DNA of 64,000 nucleotides, from assembly GCF_000743715.1 (NCBI RefSeq), contig NZ_JQEY01000013.1:2443-66442 (forward strand). The letters are read 5' to 3'. Shown here piece by piece: positions 5,240 through 57,205 of the stretch. Each line of letters begins with the position of its first letter. The stretch's first letter is position 1. A program made the translations under genes and the position numbers. This DNA comes from Palleronia rufa (GTDB lineage: Bacteria; Pseudomonadota; Alphaproteobacteria; Rhodobacterales; Rhodobacteraceae). A model generated the notes under the pieces. That model worked only from the letters and a program-made list of their open reading frames with translations. It was not told the origin of the DNA and searched no databases.

Positions 5240-6050
5240 GGCGCGCCGGCCTTTCCGCGACCGGCCTTTCCGCGACCGGCCTTTCCGCGACCGGCCTGCC
5301 CGCGACCGGCCTGCCCGCGACCAGGCAGGCGGCGGCGGCATCCGCGGCGAAGTTGGCGGCGACGCCCTGCACCGCCGCGCCCTTCAGCAGCGCCAGCACC
5401 AGAGGCAGCGGCCCGCCCAGGGCCGGTTGCGCCAGGAGCCATTGCATCAGGGCGTCCACCGCCCGGATCGCCTGGAAGGCGGGCGCGACCGGCCAGGGCG
5501 CGGGCGGCAGCGCGGCCAGCCCGTCCGCGACCGTGCGCGCCAAGCGGTCCGGCGCGACCCAGTGCGGGATCGGCAGGATCGCGTAGGATACCCACATATG
5601 GAGCGGCGCCAGCACGGCGGCCAGCGACAGGACGACCGCCGGCCGCAGGATCGCCAGCCGCAGCGGGGCCCGGATCCGGCCGGCAAGCTGCCGGTCGGCC
5701 ACCGCCAGCGCCATCGCGGTGGACATGGCCGCGATCACGACCAGCAGGACCTCCTGCCGGGCGCCGGTCATGGCCACGTAGCCCAGGGTCGGGACGGTGG
5801 CCAGCGCGGTCGCCGCGGCCCGGGCGGCGGCGCCGATGCGGCCGGTCACGAGCCGCCGGAGCCGCGTGCCGGGGTCGAGCGCCGCGGCGATCAACGTCCG
5901 GCGCACCGCGACGGACACCGCGTAGCTTCCCGTGAAGGACAGGGTCGCCAGGATCGACAGCCAGATCCATGTCCCGGGAAGGGACCGGGCGGCCAGTACG
6001 CTCAGGCAGGCCAGACCGCCGCCCAGAAGGATCAGCCACGCGCGCAACAC
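5232..6050 (-). CDS. Unknown multi-pass membrane protein with repeat tail
   Basis: About 272 residues if translation begins at GTG 6050. That start is chosen because a strong terminator for the upstream gene lies at 6090-6124, which makes the ATG at 6152 unlikely; no good ribosome site is visible. Hydrophobic stretches include LRAWLILLGGGLACLSVLAA, WIWLSILATLSFTGSYAVSV, VLLVVIAAMSTAMALAVA and AVVLSLAAVLAPLHMWVSYA. The C terminus is a pentapeptide repeat, VAGRP twice then VAERP three times, encoded by five tandem 15-bp units. The gene overlaps the following membrane-protein gene by 8 nt. Function unknown; I recognise no family. Confidence 0.65.
   Translation of the reverse strand: MLRAWLILLGGGLACLSVLAARSLPGTWIWLSILATLSFTGSYAVSVAVRRTLIAAALDPGTRLRRLVTGRIGAAARAAATALATVPTLGYVAMTGARQEVLLVVIAAMSTAMALAVADRQLAGRIRAPLRLAILRPAVVLSLAAVLAPLHMWVSYAILPIPHWVAPDRLARTVADGLAALPPAPWPVAPAFQAIRAVDALMQWLLAQPALGGPLPLVLALLKGAAVQGVAANFAADAAAACLVAGRPVAGRPVAERPVAERPVAERPARHD
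5246..5320. repeat. Five tandem 15-bp units at the end of a coding region
   Basis: Three copies of CCGGCCTTTCCGCGA (5246-5290) are followed by two of CCGGCCTGCCCGCGA (5291-5320). The unit length preserves the reading frame and encodes VAERP or VAGRP on the minus strand, so copy number can change without a frameshift. The array ends 7 nt before the start codon of the next gene on that strand. Confidence 0.9.
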
Positions 6051-8927: not shown

Positions 8928-9233
8928 ATGAAGGACGCAACCGCCATGCCCCGCTTCCTGACGCCGATTCTGGTCGCGCTGGTTCTTGTCCTGGGCGCCG
9001 CTGCGGCCGATGCCGCCTGCCTTGTCGAGTACAAGGCCAAGCGTGACGCCCCGCTGCGGCTCCATTACGGAATCATCGAACTCGCCGATGCCGAATGTGC
9101 GAACCCGGGCCCGGCCGTGGCCGGCCGGATCGCGGCGGACGGCTGGGAACTCCTGACCGTGATGGGCAAGCTGACGCCCCAGCAGGCCGAACAAAGGAGG
9201 TCAGATGCTGGCCCGTTTTACCTCAGGTATTGA
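8928..9233 (+). CDS. Small exported protein, unknown function
   Basis: About 101 residues from ATG 8928; an ATG at 8946 (MPRFLTPILVALVLVLGAAA) may be the true start because the signal peptide begins there. The mature part starts near CLVEYKAKRD and has one further Cys (DAECANPGPA), so one disulphide is possible. No family is recognised. The ribosome site of the next gene (AAAGGAGG) lies inside this gene and the two overlap by 29 nt, so the pair is probably translated together and may work together. Confidence 0.7.
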   Translation: MKDATAMPRFLTPILVALVLVLGAAAADAACLVEYKAKRDAPLRLHYGIIELADAECANPGPAVAGRIAADGWELLTVMGKLTPQQAEQRRSDAGPFYLRY

Positions 9234-9909
9234 CAGCTCGAAGGGAATCGCCCGGCTGATCGCGGCCGGGGTCGTGGGAATCGTGCTGATCCTGGGGCTC
9301 ACGGCAGTGGGCCTGTTCCTGAGCCTGCCCGACGCCAATGCCTTCAACGCGAGGGTCGAGCGAATTTTCGTTGAAAATTCGGACCTGACCGGCGGCCGGT
9401 CGATCCGGCTTCTGGAGATCCTGGCACAATCCGGGACGGCGTTCTCTGAGGTGCTGACCAGCTACCGGGTGGTGATCTTCGTGCTGATGGTGTTCGCCGT
9501 GGCGCTGCTGGTGGCGGCGCTGCTGTTCCTGGTGGCCATGGTCGCGCTCTACCGCCGCATGGGCGAGATCGAGCGCGCCGGCATCCAGGTGTCGTCGCTT
9601 CTGATCAGCCGCGAGGAGCGGACGGTCTATCTCAACAACATGGAGTTCACCCTGACCGAGGCGGCGATCGAGACCCTGTCGGTCCTGGCCGAGGCGCGGA
9701 TGGATGAGGATATCCTGTCGGGCGCGGAGATCGAGGCCATGGTATCGGGCCGCAACGCCGCCGATTGCGACGAGGCGGCGGGGGCGACCCGGATCAAGCG
9801 GCTTCGCGACGCGCTGGGCAACCAGATGGTCAGCGAACTTCTGGTGCGCACCATCGCGCGGCGCGGCTATATGCTGTCCATCGACAAGAACGTGATCCGC
9901 ATGGTGTGA
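9205..9909 (+). CDS. Membrane-anchored protein with winged-helix domain
   Basis: A 234-residue protein. Two membrane helices are visible at about residues 18-40 (LIAAGVVGIVLILGLTAVGL) and 88-114 (VVIFVLMVFAVALLVAALLF), bracketing a loop of about 45 residues. The C-terminal part from about 140 resembles the OmpR/CadC-type winged helix: a short beta start (RTVYLNNMEFTLTEAAIETL), a helix-turn-helix region, then RIKRLRDALG and a terminal hairpin ARRGYMLSIDKNVIRMV. With this topology the DNA-binding part would face the cytoplasm and the loop the periplasm, like an inverted ToxR/CadC. It has a perfect AAAGGAGG ribosome site. Four 60-bp repeats follow the stop. The regulatory role is inferred from the fold only. 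Confidence 0.72.
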   Translation: MLARFTSGIDSSKGIARLIAAGVVGIVLILGLTAVGLFLSLPDANAFNARVERIFVENSDLTGGRSIRLLEILAQSGTAFSEVLTSYRVVIFVLMVFAVALLVAALLFLVAMVALYRRMGEIERAGIQVSSLLISREERTVYLNNMEFTLTEAAIETLSVLAEARMDEDILSGAEIEAMVSGRNAADCDEAAGATRIKRLRDALGNQMVSELLVRTIARRGYMLSIDKNVIRMV

Positions 9910-9910
9910 G

Positions 9911-10150
9911 GAGCGCCCGGAAATCGCTCCAGTGGAGCGATTTCAGCGACGAACGGGCGGAGCCCCCTGCGAGCGCCCGGAAATCGCTCCAGTGGAGCGA
10001 TTTCAGCGACGAACGGGCGGAGCCCCCTGCGAGCGCCCGGAAATCGCTCCAGTGGAGCGATTTCAGCGACGAACGGGCGGAGCCCCCTGCGAGCGCCCGG
10101 AAATCGCTCCAGTGGAGCGATTTCAGCGACGAACGGGCGGAGCCCCCTGC
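9911..10150. repeat. Four perfect tandem 60-bp repeats with internal palindrome
   Basis: Four identical head-to-tail 60-bp units (9911-9970, 9971-10030, 10031-10090, 10091-10150) begin one base after a stop codon. Each unit contains the arms AAATCGCTCC and GGAGCGATTT around AGT, and an outer pair CGCCCG/CGGGCG, so each can fold into a nested hairpin. The unit length is a multiple of three and several frames stay open across the array, giving spurious repetitive proteins. No spacers separate the units, so it is not a CRISPR array. Perfect identity points to recent amplification; a REP/BIME-like origin is my best guess. Confidence 0.95.
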
Positions 10151-10349
10151 GAGCTGAGCGCTTTCAGCTACTTTGTCACCACCCCGAAAAAAGACACATG
10201 AAATCAGTCGCCTGCAATGTGCGTTTCACTGGCTTTGTCACGTGGTGGGGGCCGGGGCGGAATGTTGGGCTCTGATTCCGTAAGAAAATCCAATGAAATC
10301 AGCGTTCGATTTCCCAAGGTGGGGGGCGACGACCCCGCACCCGACAGGC
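10151..10349. other. No gene; short spacer between repeats and IS element
   Basis: About 200 bp with lower GC than the surroundings and short repeated words (CTTTGTCAC twice, GAAATCAG twice). I see no gene. It may be remnant mobile DNA next to the tRNA-Gln locus. Confidence 0.4.
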
Positions 10350-11399
10350 TAGAGCATGATGAGATTAGCTTGAAGCGTATCCAGTATTGGCGAGGTAGTT
10401 CGCGCACTCCTGTGGGCTGAAGCGGTCGAGCAGTGTCCCGATCCTGCGCCACGTTGCCTCCATTGTGCGCTCGGCTGCGTTGCGGAGCATGTGTTTGAGC
10501 TTCGAGAAGACCTGTTCAATCGGGTTCAGGTCGGGGCTGTAGGGCGGCAGAAAAAGTAGATGCGCTTTCGCGTTACGGATCGCCTGCCGCACGGCTTGCC
10601 CTTTGTGGCTGCCCAGATTGTCCATAACCACCACATCGCCCGGGCGCAGGGTTGGGACGAGCACGTGCGCGACATAAGCCCGGAACGCTTCGCCGTTGAC
10701 GGGACCGTCCAAAACAAAGGGCGCGTCGATCCGATCATGACGCAGCGCTGCGATAAAGGTCATGGTGCGCCAGTGACCATGCGGGGCCCGCCCGATCAGG
10801 CGTTCACCTCTGGGAGCCCAGCCGCGCAGCGGGGCCATGTTGGTCTTGGCCCAGGTTTCATCAATGAACACGAGACGACGGGGGTCGATCCGGCCCTGGT
10901 GCCGCTTCCAGCGCACACGGCGGCGGCTCACGTCGGGGCGGTTCTGCTCCTCGGCGAGTTGGGTCTTTTTTTGAACGAGTAGCCCGTGCGGCGCACGAAG
11001 GCCCAGACGGTGCGGTAGTCGACCTTGAGCCCGCGCTCGGCCAGTTCCACCACCAGTCCGCGCAGTGTGAACGGCTCCGTTATCCGCTCCAGAAGCCACG
11101 CCTCATGCCCGCCTGCAATCTTGCGTGGCGGGTGGCCGCCTGTCCCTGCCGGAGCGCAACTCCCGGTCGCACGCAAACGCTGCGACCACTTCACAACACT
11201 GGACGGAGCCACATCCAGGGCCGCTGCGACCTGACGCACGCTCTCGCCCCCCAACAGCCGCGCCATTGCCCTCTCTCGAAGGTCCATTGAAAGTGCTCTA
11301 CCCACTACTCGCCCTCCATCTTGTGGTCGGCAACAGTGAATCACCAAAATGCAGGCCTGTGAATCCTCTATCGATTCAGGCTGATTTCATCCCGCTCTA
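10350..11399 (-). mobile_element. IS630-family insertion sequence
   Basis: The element of about 1046 bp lies between two TA dinucleotides (10350-10351 and 11398-11399), as expected for IS630/Tc1-type insertion with TA duplication. The imperfect terminal inverted repeats are GAGCATGATGAGATTAGC at the left and GAGCGGGATGAAATCAGC read inward from the right. It encodes a two-frame transposase. Joining the flanks through one TA restores an interrupted palindrome (GACAGG...CCTGTC), so the target was probably a hairpin. Both frames and both ends look intact, so the copy may be active. Confidence 0.92.
10365..11290 (-). CDS. IS630 transposase, two frames joined by -1 frameshift
   Basis: The first frame carries the helix-turn-helix DNA-binding part ([35 protein letters not shown]) and ends after YSFKKRPNS at 10928. 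The second frame carries the DDE catalytic domain: FIDETWAK (first Asp), [11 protein letters not shown] (second Asp) and [18 protein letters not shown] (Glu). On the minus strand seven A at 10972-10966 lie exactly where the frames join, giving [16 protein letters not shown], a classic -1 slippery site. Programmed frameshifting is known in this IS family. I place the start at ATG 11290 (MDLRERAM); an ATG at 11347 is upstream. Confidence 0.88.
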
Positions 11400-11571
11400 G
11401 CTACCTGTCCGATTAGCTACCTGTCCGATTTCCTGGGACCACTTCAGATCATCGCTCCGAACAGCTACGGCGGTCACGTCGAGGCCTGTGTAAACGCCTG
11501 TGTAACCTGCGACCCAGCCCTACCAAGCTGGAACAGCTAAAACTCTGAAATAAATACGTTTTTTAAGATGA
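11400..11571. other. Short spacer between IS and tRNA-Gln, tandem 16-bp duplication
   Basis: Immediately after the IS, GCTACCTGTCCGATTA occurs twice in tandem (second copy ends in T). The rest holds the words GCCTGTGTAA twice. No gene is visible; it may be a scar of integration at the tRNA 3' end. Confidence 0.4.
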
Positions 11572-18236: not shown

Positions 18237-20158
18237 GCGCGGCTCCGTCCCGAACGCGAGGGGCGGAAATCCCGGCGCAGGTCAAGAGACGCGAAGAGGT
18301 CCTCGATCTCGCCGCGCTGGTCGGACGGATAGCTGTCCAGCGGCGGCAGCGATCCATTGAGCGCGAAAAGCAGGATGTCGCGCGCCACCGGGGCCGCGGC
18401 GGTCGATCCACCGCCGCCGTGCTCGACGATCACGCTGACCGCGTAGCGCGGGGCCGCGTAGGGCGCGAAGGCCACGAAAAGCGCATGGTCGCGCTCTTCC
18501 CATGGTACGTCCTGGTTCGACACCACGACCGAGCGGACCTGGCTTGTGCCGGTCTTGCCCGCCATGGTCCGACCGTCCAGATCGACGCGCGATCTGTAGG
18601 CCGTGCCCCGATTGGAGTTGACGACGGCATCCATGCCGTTGCGGACCAGCCGCAGGTGGTTCTCGTTCAGGTCCAGGGGCTCCGCGCCGACGACCGGCGT
18701 CTCCACCCCGTCCACGGAGCGGACCAGGCGCGGCTGGATCGACGTGCCGCTCGCCAGCCGCGCGGCCATCACCGCCAACTGCAACGGCGACGCCAGCACA
18801 TAGCCCTGGCCGATCGCCGCGTTCAGGCTGTCGCCCACGCGCCATTCCTTGCCGTATCTTTCGGCGATCCAGCCCTTGTCCGGCATGACACCGGCGGTGA
18901 CCGCGGACATCGGCAGGTCGAACTGTTGCCCGATGCCGAACTTGCGGGCCATCGCGGCGATCCGGTCGATGCCGACGCGCTGCGCCAGCTCATAGTAGTA
19001 CACGTCGCAGCTTTGCTGGAGGCTTTTTTCCAGATTCACGTTGCCGTGGCCGCCGCGTTTCCAGCAGCGGAACCGGCGGTTGCCCAGCGTCACATATCCG
19101 CGGCAGTAGACGGTTTCGGCCGACGACAGCAGCCCCGCGTCGAGTGCCGCCAGGGCCACCAGCATCTTGAAGGTGGAGCCCGGCGGATACGCGCCCTGCA
19201 CGGCCTTGTTGGCCAGGGGCCGGTAGATGTTGTTGGTCAGCTCACCGTAATCGGAGACGGAAATCCCGCGCACGAATTTGTTGGGATCGAAGGACGGTGC
19301 GTTGCCCACGGCCAGAAGGTCCCCGTTGCGCACGTCCATGACCACTGCGGCGGCAGACAGCCCCAGCGCCAGCCGCGCCTCGGTGAAGTTCTGCAGGCGG
19401 CTTTCCACGGTCAGCTGCAGATCCGCGCCGGGAATGCCGTCGTCGCGGCCCAGCTCGCGCATGACCCGACCGGCGGCGTTGACTTCGATCCGGCGGGCCC
19501 CCGCCTTGCCGCGCAGGTCGCGTTCGTATTTCTGCTCGACCCCGGTCTTGCCGATCTGGAACTTCGGGATCTGCAGCAGCGGATCGTCGTCGTCGAGCCG
19601 GGACAGGTCGTAGTCGGAGACCGGTCCGACATAGCCGATCACATGGGCGAAATCCTGGTCCAGAGGATAGTTACGGGTCAGGCCCACATCCGGCGTGATG
19701 CCGGGCAGGGCGGGCGCATTCACCGACACGGCGGCGATGTCCTCCCAGCTGCGGTTTTCGGTGACGGTGACGGGAACGAAGGGAGAGCGGCGGCCGATCT
19801 CTTTCAGCGCACGCTCCAGCTCCGTGTCGTCGATGAAGATGATCCGGCGGAGCCGGTCGAGCGCGTCCTCAACATCGCCCGCGTCCTCGCGCACGATGAC
19901 GATGCGGTAGTTCTGCGCGTTCTCGGCCAGAGGCACGCCGTTGCGGTCGAAGACAAGGCCCCGCGCCGGGGCGATGAGGCGCATGTTGATGCGGTTTTCC
20001 TCGGCCAGAAAGCGGAACTCCTCGGCCTGCTCGACCTGCATCTGGCGCATCCGCCAGCCGAGCAGGCCGGCAACCCCCAGCTGCGCGCCGCCCAGCACCA
20101 GTGAGCGGCGGCCGATCAGGGCCAGCGATGCCTCGGTATCCTTCTGGTCACGCTTCAT
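18233..20158 (-). CDS. mrdA: Penicillin-binding protein 2
   Basis: A 641-residue class B penicillin-binding protein, the transpeptidase that crosslinks peptidoglycan during cell elongation. One N-terminal membrane anchor (SLVLGGAQLGVAGLLGWRMR) is followed by the PBP dimer domain with RGLVFDRNGVPLAEN, then the transpeptidase domain with AYPPGSTFKMLVALAAL (SxxK nucleophile), SCDVYYY and AGKTGTSQVR (KTG). ATG 20158 overlaps the mreD stop by 4 nt. Sequence length and all motifs are intact. Confidence 0.97.
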   Translation of the reverse strand: MKRDQKDTEASLALIGRRSLVLGGAQLGVAGLLGWRMRQMQVEQAEEFRFLAEENRINMRLIAPARGLVFDRNGVPLAENAQNYRIVIVREDAGDVEDALDRLRRIIFIDDTELERALKEIGRRSPFVPVTVTENRSWEDIAAVSVNAPALPGITPDVGLTRNYPLDQDFAHVIGYVGPVSDYDLSRLDDDDPLLQIPKFQIGKTGVEQKYERDLRGKAGARRIEVNAAGRVMRELGRDDGIPGADLQLTVESRLQNFTEARLALGLSAAAVVMDVRNGDLLAVGNAPSFDPNKFVRGISVSDYGELTNNIYRPLANKAVQGAYPPGSTFKMLVALAALDAGLLSSAETVYCRGYVTLGNRRFRCWKRGGHGNVNLEKSLQQSCDVYYYELAQRVGIDRIAAMARKFGIGQQFDLPMSAVTAGVMPDKGWIAERYGKEWRVGDSLNAAIGQGYVLASPLQLAVMAARLASGTSIQPRLVRSVDGVETPVVGAEPLDLNENHLRLVRNGMDAVVNSNRGTAYRSRVDLDGRTMAGKTGTSQVRSVVVSNQDVPWEERDHALFVAFAPYAAPRYAVSVIVEHGGGGSTAAAPVARDILLFALNGSLPPLDSYPSDQRGEIEDLFASLDLRRDFRPSRSGRSRA

Positions 20159-56350: not shown

Positions 56351-56510
56351 GCCGAAGGCGCTCATCCCGACAGCGCGATGCCGAAGGCGCTCATCCCGAC
56401 AGCGCGATGCCGAAGGCGCTCATCCTGACAGCGCGATACCGAAGGCGCTCATCCTGACAGCGCGATGCCGGAGGCGCTCATCCTGACAGCGCGATGCCGA
56501 AGGCGCTCAT
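56351..56510. repeat. Five and a half tandem 29-bp repeats
   Basis: Units at 56351-56379, 56380-56408, 56409-56437, 56438-56466 and 56467-56495, plus 15 bp of a sixth, differ at only a few bases. The array fills the space between convergent EamA and NUDIX genes; the final partial unit contains the NUDIX stop codon, and every unit carries the same TGAGCGCC on the minus strand. This suggests that the 3' end of the NUDIX gene was amplified. No spacers, so not CRISPR. Confidence 0.95.
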
Positions 56511-57205
56511 CCCTGCGGTGCCGCGTCGTCGAGTACCGCCCAGGCGGCGTCGTTGCGGAAATAGGGCACCCTGGCGGGCGGGGTGAGGTCGGGCAGGCGG
56601 TCCTCGACCTCTCCCAGCACCACGGAGGTGATGAACGGCAGGTCCAGCGCACGGGCGCGGCGCAGATCGACCCAGTGCAGATGTCCCAGCTCGTCCGTGG
56701 CCGCGTCGAAATCGTCCGGATCGGAGGCCAGCGCCTCGGCCGGCATGACGAAGAACCGCGCGTCGAACCGGCGCGGCCGTCCCGGCGGCGTCACCGCGCG
56801 AAACATGTACGACAGGCTCTGCGCGTCGGGACGGTGGCCGGTGGCGGCGAACCGCGCCCAGTCCGGCGGCGCGTCGGGCCAGTCGCCCGCGATCCCCGCG
56901 ACCTGGCCGGTCTCTTCCCAAAGTTCGCGGATCGCTGCGGCCGCCAGCGCCCCGGCAGGGCAGTCGCCGCGCAGGGCAAGCCGCGCGGCGCAGGTGGCAC
57001 TGGGACCGCGGGCCAGCGGCACGGCGGCGTCGCCGGGGTCCACGGCCCCGCCCGGAAACACGTATTTGCTGGGCATGAAGGCCGCGGAATGCCCGCGCTG
57101 GCCCATCAGCACCGACGGCGTGCCCGCGGCGTCGCGCACGACGATCACGCTGGCCGCGTCGCGGATCGCGGGACCGGTCAGAACCCGTGCATCCGTTTGG
57201 CCCAT
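56507..57205 (-). CDS. NUDIX hydrolase
   Basis: A 232-residue phosphohydrolase. FPGGAVDPGD begins the Nudix region, with REWEETG replaced by RELWEETG (IRELWEETGQVAG), so the box GxGx..REUxEExGU is recognisable with a long insert between its halves (AAVPLARGPSATCAARLALR). Related to CoA/NADH-pyrophosphatase-like NUDT proteins with such inserts; substrate unknown. Start ATG 57205 overlaps the DUF983 gene by 28 nt. Confidence 0.88.
   Translation of the reverse strand: MGQTDARVLTGPAIRDAASVIVVRDAAGTPSVLMGQRGHSAAFMPSKYVFPGGAVDPGDAAVPLARGPSATCAARLALRGDCPAGALAAAAIRELWEETGQVAGIAGDWPDAPPDWARFAATGHRPDAQSLSYMFRAVTPPGRPRRFDARFFVMPAEALASDPDDFDAATDELGHLHWVDLRRARALDLPFITSVVLGEVEDRLPDLTPPARVPYFRNDAAWAVLDDAAPQG

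Follow-up and report, generated by a model that had tools for sequence, protein, structure and literature searches.

A REP-like, probably mobile palindromic element of Rhodobacterales, amplified in tandem behind a gene of Palleronia rufa

Four identical 60-bp units stand head-to-tail at positions 9911-10150 of the stretch of DNA analysed here (the window; 64,000 nucleotides of Palleronia rufa). The array is best explained as a single copy of a small REP-like palindromic element that has been amplified locally in tandem; the element is probably mobile and forms a family in Rhodobacterales. This is our favoured reading of sequence comparisons, against which it must be said that transposition itself was not seen. 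The element would move as a unit, with single DNA strands that fold into hairpins taking part, and would insert 3' of G-rich sequence (RGGG / GGTGA) with no target duplication and seemingly with the loss of a few target bases. Copies are found where they do little harm: after the stop codons of genes, in spacers of other kinds, and within IS genes, of which some look broken and others intact. Arrays would then grow, probably because replication slips or exchange is unequal at short direct repeats, which in the window array would be GAGC.

Results

Four identical units directly behind a stop codon

Tandem Repeats Finder placed the array at 9911-10154 (period 60, 4.1 copies, 100% matches, score 488), and at a lag of 60 the window matched itself unbroken over 184 bases, as against a longest run of 15 in 40 shuffles in 200-base blocks (lags 20-200). 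The units, all on the plus strand, occupy 9911-9970, 9971-10030, 10031-10090 and 10091-10150, the last being followed by GAGC, the four bases with which a fifth unit would begin. A gap of 1 nt separates the array from the TGA stop codon (9907-9909) of the gene at 9205-9909 (plus strand). Relatives place the true start of the element at the GTGA at 9906-9909, a tag that directly precedes the outer stem (P1) at most sites of the family (counts below), and the stop codon of the upstream gene belongs to this tag of the first element. Every unit contains a 25-nt inverted repeat (GAAATCGCTCC / AGT / GGAGCGATTTC). The sequence-only reading that drew attention to the array had described four perfect repeats with hairpin-forming palindromes placed right after a stop codon, and this was borne out.

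Read against the family structure, unit 1 carries on the plus strand a decayed 5' strand of P1 (GGAGC, 9910-9914), the P3 hairpin with an 11-bp stem and an AGT tip (9920-9944; match of covariance model R1 at C13:12352-12408), the 3' strand of P1 (GCGAC, 9946-9950) and a conserved module of GAAC, the P4 hairpin GGGC-GGA-GCCC and C (9951-9966), an exact 16-mer that occurs four times in the array. Three of the five P1 pairs are left in unit 1 (9910-9914 with 9946-9950) and two of five in units 2-4. Both P1 mismatches are common to all four units; a unit of the shorter type (type I, below) at the same gene in a related genome (L102 in G013) pairs fully. Since the mismatches are present in all four units, the multiplication probably took place after P1 had decayed. 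The comparison points to passive tandem duplication of the window copies and not to repeated insertion, for which the GAGC at the array end would be a fitting slippage point. The copy number is taken from a draft assembly and its exact value is uncertain, as are the counts for the arrays L103 and L207 of two relatives, which contain runs of N.

Exact matches to the P4 module and to the P3 core in the window are the four array copies, and looser searches of the window found no enrichment of either the P4 module (up to 3 mismatches: 7 matches, 4.55 expected, 7 reached in 17 of 100 shuffles) or the P3 core (up to 2 mismatches: 8 matches, 6.8 expected, 8 reached in 38 of 100 shuffles). The product of the upstream gene, which we take to be a membrane protein, has a C-terminal match to PF00486 (winged-helix, transcriptional-regulator) of 22.7 bits, below the cut-off of 26.2, and an orthologue is found in 13 of the 14 genomes of the genus. 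Further on, some 200 bp beyond the array, lies an IS630-type transposase gene in two overlapping frames (10365-11347, minus strand; DDE_3 + HTH).

Copies elsewhere share a common plan

BLAST with the window array found a second array in the same genome (C3:214433), and pattern searches found further arrays. Three arrays of the same plan stand directly behind stop codons in this genome, namely the 4 x 60 bp array of the window, one of 5 x 71 bp adjoining a gene that we take to be purU, and one of 5.3 x 61 bp adjoining a presumably hydrolase-like gene, the gene names at these sister arrays being assigned from their translated ends. A degenerate pair of elements lies at C22:29299. The array had also been called frame-preserving; this holds for the 60-bp period, and for inserts in IS3 that keep the orfB frame (below), but it is no rule for arrays, because the periods of the two sister arrays described above are 61 and 71 bp.

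The anatomy was worked out from 31 loci, two further pattern matches (L112 and L113, of 33) having been judged chance matches inside genes. The plan reads [GGG]GTGA - P1 (~5 bp) - linker or P2 - P3 - P1' - GAAC - P4 (GSGC GGA GCSC) - C, where P3 is a variable hairpin of ~10 bp, mostly with a TCC/NNN/GGA tip. Type I units are ~60 bp long with a linker of ~6 nt, and type II units of ~70 bp carry an extra small hairpin, P2. The hairpin arms differ widely among copies, yet they are complementary, and P4 occurs as GGGC/GCCC and as GCGC/GCGC; members of the family are alike in anatomy more than in sequence. In 27 of 58 type I-like sites, CGTC is found a little ahead of P3, where P1 ends and in the linker, a position internal to the element and not at its end.

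The two covariance models, R1 and R2, whose E-values are rough, were run on 146 genomes. R1 matched 55 of them. Of these, 54 belong to the window's family, represented by 89 genomes (G000-G088), and one (G095, with 7% contamination) belongs to the 57 genomes outside it. R2 matched 40 of the 146. There were between 1 and 23 R1 matches per genome, the window's genome having 23 at E <= 0.001, of which the weakest (E > ~1e-5) may be false. The description of the repeats as REP-like thus stands, the element being interspersed and palindromic, with a tag at one end, and present in more than half of the family genomes. A consensus query on named plasmids found the element in 15 records, among them plasmids of Rhodobacter capsulatus SB 1003, Cereibacter azotoformans, Rhodovulum sulfidophilum, Sagittula stellata, Ruegeria and Leisingera, and no phage record matched. 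Another of the 15 is labelled as a Bacillus velezensis plasmid from sea water (NZ_CP061940.1, copy at 18524-18587), which may reflect mislabelling or transfer.

Occupied and empty sites

We parsed 145 of 146 matches into a set of 98 sites, a non-random sample drawn from the best listed matches, in which several sites are copies of one IS. TGA (69 sites) or TAA (4 sites) immediately precedes P1 in 73 of the 98, the TGA often serving as stop codon of the upstream gene, and the tag at this place is GTGA in 66 and GTAA in 4. By a crude test (an open frame of at least 70 codons with high third-position G+C), 35 of the 98 sites are in-frame gene ends in the same orientation; this test wrongly included L188 and L202, which are antisense in IS genes, and missed the window site and some others where P1 was misplaced.

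The site behind the window gene was read in 11 of the 13 genomes that have the gene. It is occupied in G000, G004, G008 and G013, where the stop is GTG-TGA followed by the elements, and empty in G002, G003, G006, G007, G010, G011 and G012, where the stop lies at the same codon; the native stop has therefore been kept and the site is patchily occupied. The occupants differ, with four type I units in G000, type II in G004 and mixed type I and II in G008 and G013. Different unit types at one site were also found in G008, G011 and G013 at a second gene, presumably uvrC. A unit that occurred nowhere else and in constant number had been named as the finding that would speak against a REP-like element; instead, relatives of the unit stand elsewhere, and unit type and number vary between species.

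Empty-site homologues were compared at three IS sites. In IS5 the native ATGAAGGTG-CTGTTC contrasts with the occupied ATGAAGG-GTGA...GCCCCGGG-CTGTTC; in IS3 the native AAAGGGA-AACTAC-TGAGCCCC contrasts with AAAGGGA-GTGA...GAGCCCC-TGAGCCCC; and in IS256 the native CTCGATGGGGTTCGAC-GTCCGCAGG contrasts with CTCGACCGGGGTGA...GCCCCGGGTA-GTCCGCAGG, one IS256 empty-site homologue being 90.9% identical over the matched pieces. At none of the three sites can a target duplication be seen. About 1 to 10 target bases are missing from the occupied sites, a provisional estimate because the homologues are ~72-91% identical and the difference could be divergence. A non-autonomous element of IS200/IS605 type would insert cleanly 3' of a tetranucleotide that the empty site already has. 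GTGTGA is present in one empty window-gene site (G010), and the IS5, IS3 and IS256 homologues have no GTGA at the site.

On three Ruegeria plasmids the element stands between gcvH and gcvP in reverse sense. In this spacer (L371/L375/L377/L379) it is seemingly inserted at the G-run of a terminator-like stretch that resembles one at ~1960-2025 of L002 (..CTCCCCCGGGATATTTTGGGAAAGATGAAG). L170 and L202 each contain a pair of oppositely oriented copies separated by 0.7-2.3 kb; the arrays that were read are head-to-tail.

Pairing is conserved, with a mild RNA signal at most

Conservation of pairing was measured in two alignments, A5 (11 type I rows) and A6 (12 type II rows), the rows of which had been picked for regular length, a choice that favours structure. 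Pairs are kept in 94.3% of the cells of A5 and 98.6% of those of A6, and cells with double changes number 27 as against 8.3 in shuffles (A5) and 29 as against 7.5 (A6). When partners were slid by 1-3 columns, pairing fell to 31-51% (A5) and 38-48% (A6). The number of further pair types in A5, a weak measure, was matched by 15 of 500 shuffles. In a larger set of 118 distinct rows, fitted from 146 matches to the covariance model, Watson-Crick pairs fill 1127 of 1170 cells of P3, 455 of 467 of P4 and 477 of 575 of P1, the last figure being an underestimate because the type I model misreads type II copies at P1.

Such pairing could reflect a selected RNA element, in which hairpins of the mRNA would stall terminating ribosomes or protect 3' ends and selection would keep the arms matched. 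We regard this as unlikely, though it is the most serious alternative and partly compatible with a mobile element. REPs that lie no more than 15 nt from a stop codon are reported to stall ribosomes (PMC12306157), and the in-frame gene ends counted above by the crude test agree with a role at such places. If selection on RNA kept the pairing, G-T cells should far outnumber A-C cells, whereas the two should be about equal without it. Among 71 distinct P3 arm pairs (700 cells) there are 16 G-T and 6 A-C cells (p = 0.05), which leans towards RNA; however, 16 of 700 cells is a small share, and the RNA signal in P3 is at most mild, double changes being dominant. The antisense copies in IS5 and IS256 genes, the reverse sense at gcvH-gcvP, the patchy presence at the window gene within the genus and the lack of a T-run also argue against the RNA reading. 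On the favoured reading, too, hairpins behind a stop codon may hold back ribosomes or 3' exonucleases, as has been reported for E. coli REPs near stop codons, and the 3' ends of mRNAs or the termination of translation could be affected.

The suggestion that the units are stacked transcript-end hairpins failed as far as the usual intrinsic terminators are concerned, with 0 terminator-like sites (G+C hairpin + U-run) in 9700-10420. Single-sequence RNA folding of five sequences formed P3 in all five and the family's P1, P2 and P3 jointly for L002 alone. The lowest-energy fold of the window unit by itself differs from the family fold: P3 forms, while CGCCCG pairs with CGGGCG and P4 opens. Rfam gave no match at gathering score for 13 loci, and for 9000-11500 of the window all matches fell below threshold (best E 0.062).

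In E. coli and yeast, imperfect palindromes in DNA are reported to be corrected in a self-templated way (PMC7202029, PMC3820800, PMC8604942). We infer that such correction probably keeps the arms of the element matched, at least in part; it is favoured because the changes in pairing go nearly all from Watson-Crick to Watson-Crick.

The window's genome has no match to a RAYT

Where REP-type repeats have been studied best, a RAYT enzyme accounts for them, and mobilisation by a RAYT-type transposase elsewhere had been proposed for the window array. A search with PF01797 (Y1_Tnp / RAYT) that does find matches in E. coli found none in the window's genome, and among the 54 element-bearing genomes of the family 6 have a Y1_Tnp match and 48 have none. 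A classical REP or BIME moved by a RAYT (a Y1 tyrosine transposase) would account for the one-sided tag, the hairpins and the placement behind genes, and GTAG-tagged REPs, too, often supply the stop codon (PMC3733652). Besides the absence of PF01797, however, the tag is mostly GTGA and not GTAG/GTRG, the arrays read are head-to-tail and a genome has 1-23 matches, so we consider this explanation very improbable.

Searches of the window's genome with PF00078 (reverse transcriptase) and PF04986 (Y2) also found no match, and a reverse transcriptase or a Y2/IS91 enzyme as the required mover is thus unsupported. The Y2 search matched 0 of 14 control genomes, which leaves its sensitivity without demonstration by controls, and 19 of 146 relatives. 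None of Y1, reverse transcriptase and Y2 was found in 22 of the 54 element-bearing family genomes, though genes can be missed in drafts. These are only three kinds of mover, and the mover may have been lost from genomes. Spread of the palindromes without a dedicated enzyme is a tentative reading that we rate a little below selection on RNA: template-switching during replication would copy hairpins onto G-rich targets with loss of a few target bases, and the arms would be kept perfect by self-templated correction. If true, one family, which brings or uses a stop codon and enters IS genes, would link the genome-wide spread of hairpins, the remodelling of 3' ends and the evolution of IS across a bacterial family.

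Copies in IS genes

Inserts after residue 63 of an IS5 transposase were found in L165-L168, L172-L177, L196, L362, L369 and L370, those in L165, L175, L177, L362 and L370 being out of frame. Copies at the IS3 orfA/orfB junction were found in L169-L171, L184, L185 and L364, and antisense copies in IS5 genes (L092, L093, L094, L096, L188, L205, L374) and in IS256 genes (L368, and L202 by BLAST to an annotated IS256). In L169 (G082; 2056-2001) orfA is complete and gains ~20 residues from the element, while the open frame of orfB runs through the element for 320 codons, 18 more than the 302 aligned residues, so that the insert can be read in frame; judged from its sequence, this element may belong to a working transposase. 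The orfB of L170 and L171 is likewise open through the element and shifts frame further on. Stops inside the gene were counted in L092 (5), L205 (2) and L364 (9), L192 has no gene start and L196 has two elements. The IS carriers are thus a mixture of intact-looking and broken copies. Several IS copies in each of G010, G001 and G082 bear the same or nearly the same element, and copies in IS genes could hitch-hike with their IS. The IS5 copies of L172, L174, L175, L176 and L196 contain, besides the element and no more than 100 bp behind it, a second kind of small hairpin-like insert (..GCGCCATTGGTCCGAG.. and a relative).

Translational bypass, for which T4 gene 60 and the yeast mitochondrial byps are precedents, would let ribosomes skip the insert so that the interrupted transposases stay active. 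The insert follows residue 63 of IS5 in many copies, in several of them between two Gly codons, and in L175 and L176 (G001, where several such IS copies exist) the transposase is open for 243 codons after the insert, in another frame. A second small insert in these two copies shifts the frame again, and one skip would therefore be insufficient. Moreover, other carriers are broken, as listed above, the IS3 insert is read through in frame, and bypass leaves the antisense and behind-stop copies unexplained. Several IS5 contigs (G010 and part of G001) end within 160 bp, and those carriers cannot be judged. We think bypass even less probable than movement by a RAYT. A purely local tandem duplication without a wider family, to which the confinement of the exact 60-bp unit to this array in its genome would be suited, is refuted by the structure-conserving relatives at other sites and in the other genomes of the family.

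Discussion

A REP-like mobile element thus remains the best account of the array. Di Nocera et al. (2013), in their survey of REPs, set out 24 GTAG families, which are RAYT-associated, and 4 CGTC families, and Rhodobacter, Roseobacter and Paracoccus do not occur in its text (PMC3733652). Compared with these descriptions, the element resembles the GTAG REPs in being a short palindrome with an unpaired motif at one end and complementary variation of its stems, in standing mostly downstream of genes, in a tag that can supply the stop codon, and in having some intragenic copies. Unlike the GTAG REPs, which are palindromes of 20-40 bp with a RAYT, it is tagged GTGA or GTAA in place of a terminal GTAG (or the variants GYRG/GTGG) beside the stem, measures ~60-70 bp, has three or four helices, stands in head-to-tail arrays, is low in copy number and has no RAYT.

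The CGTC REPs of the same survey (PMC3733652) occur mainly in Alphaproteobacteria without a dedicated transposase; the element, too, is alphaproteobacterial and palindromic with no known mover, and has CGTC near P3, though inside the element, in the type I-like sites counted above. CGTC REPs have a stem of 8-9 bp, a loop of 4-5 nt and a CCA tail and are mostly head-to-head dimers, whereas the element has a stem of ~10 bp, a 3-nt tip, P1 and P4 in addition, and head-to-tail arrays. In view of these CGTC motifs, the P3 core may conceivably descend from such a REP.

Rickettsia palindromic elements, small palindromic inserts within alphaproteobacterial genes (PMC3733652), resemble the IS3 copies (L169, L170, L171), which are open in-frame inserts; unlike them, most copies of the element follow a stop codon, lie in a spacer or in antisense orientation, or, in IS5, are out of frame. 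In BIMEs the orientation of neighbouring REPs alternates; the arrays read here are head-to-tail, and pairs in opposite orientation were seen in L170 and L202. MITEs and the enterobacterial RU-type repeats are small, interspersed and hairpin-forming, like the element. Unlike them, the element showed no target duplication, and no more than 4-5 bp could form between its ends, GGGGTGA and GCCCC. Searches of the open-licence PMC literature listed no description of the element, which is no proof of absence. We file it as an element of REP kind outside the REP families described in the survey, because of its tag, its length, its build of several helices, its head-to-tail arrays and the lack of a RAYT.

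A family-wide, structurally defined element in genomes with no match to a RAYT, a reverse transcriptase or Y2 makes it possible to test how such palindromes spread, and its diverse yet matching arms offer a record, left by nature, of how palindromes in DNA are corrected. In Rhodobacterales, unusual reading frames between genes or at C-termini, as well as variants of IS, may be due to the element, which can be annotated with the two covariance models.

Other tandem repeats were noted beside the element. The window holds a 29-bp repeat at 56351-56513 (5.6 copies, 95% matches) and a 15-bp repeat at 5242-5322 (5.5 copies, 95% matches) inside overlapping reading frames. Elsewhere in the same genome (G000) a 16-bp tandem hairpin repeat was found at C7:11605-11764 (L050), C3:94307-94370 (L051) and C11:39066 (L053). 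It stands behind a CTTCATCTTTCC..ATATCCCGGGG stretch, and its unit on C7, GAACGGGCAGCGCCCC, present in 11.7 copies, is identical to the GAAC-P4 module of the element at 14 of 16 positions.
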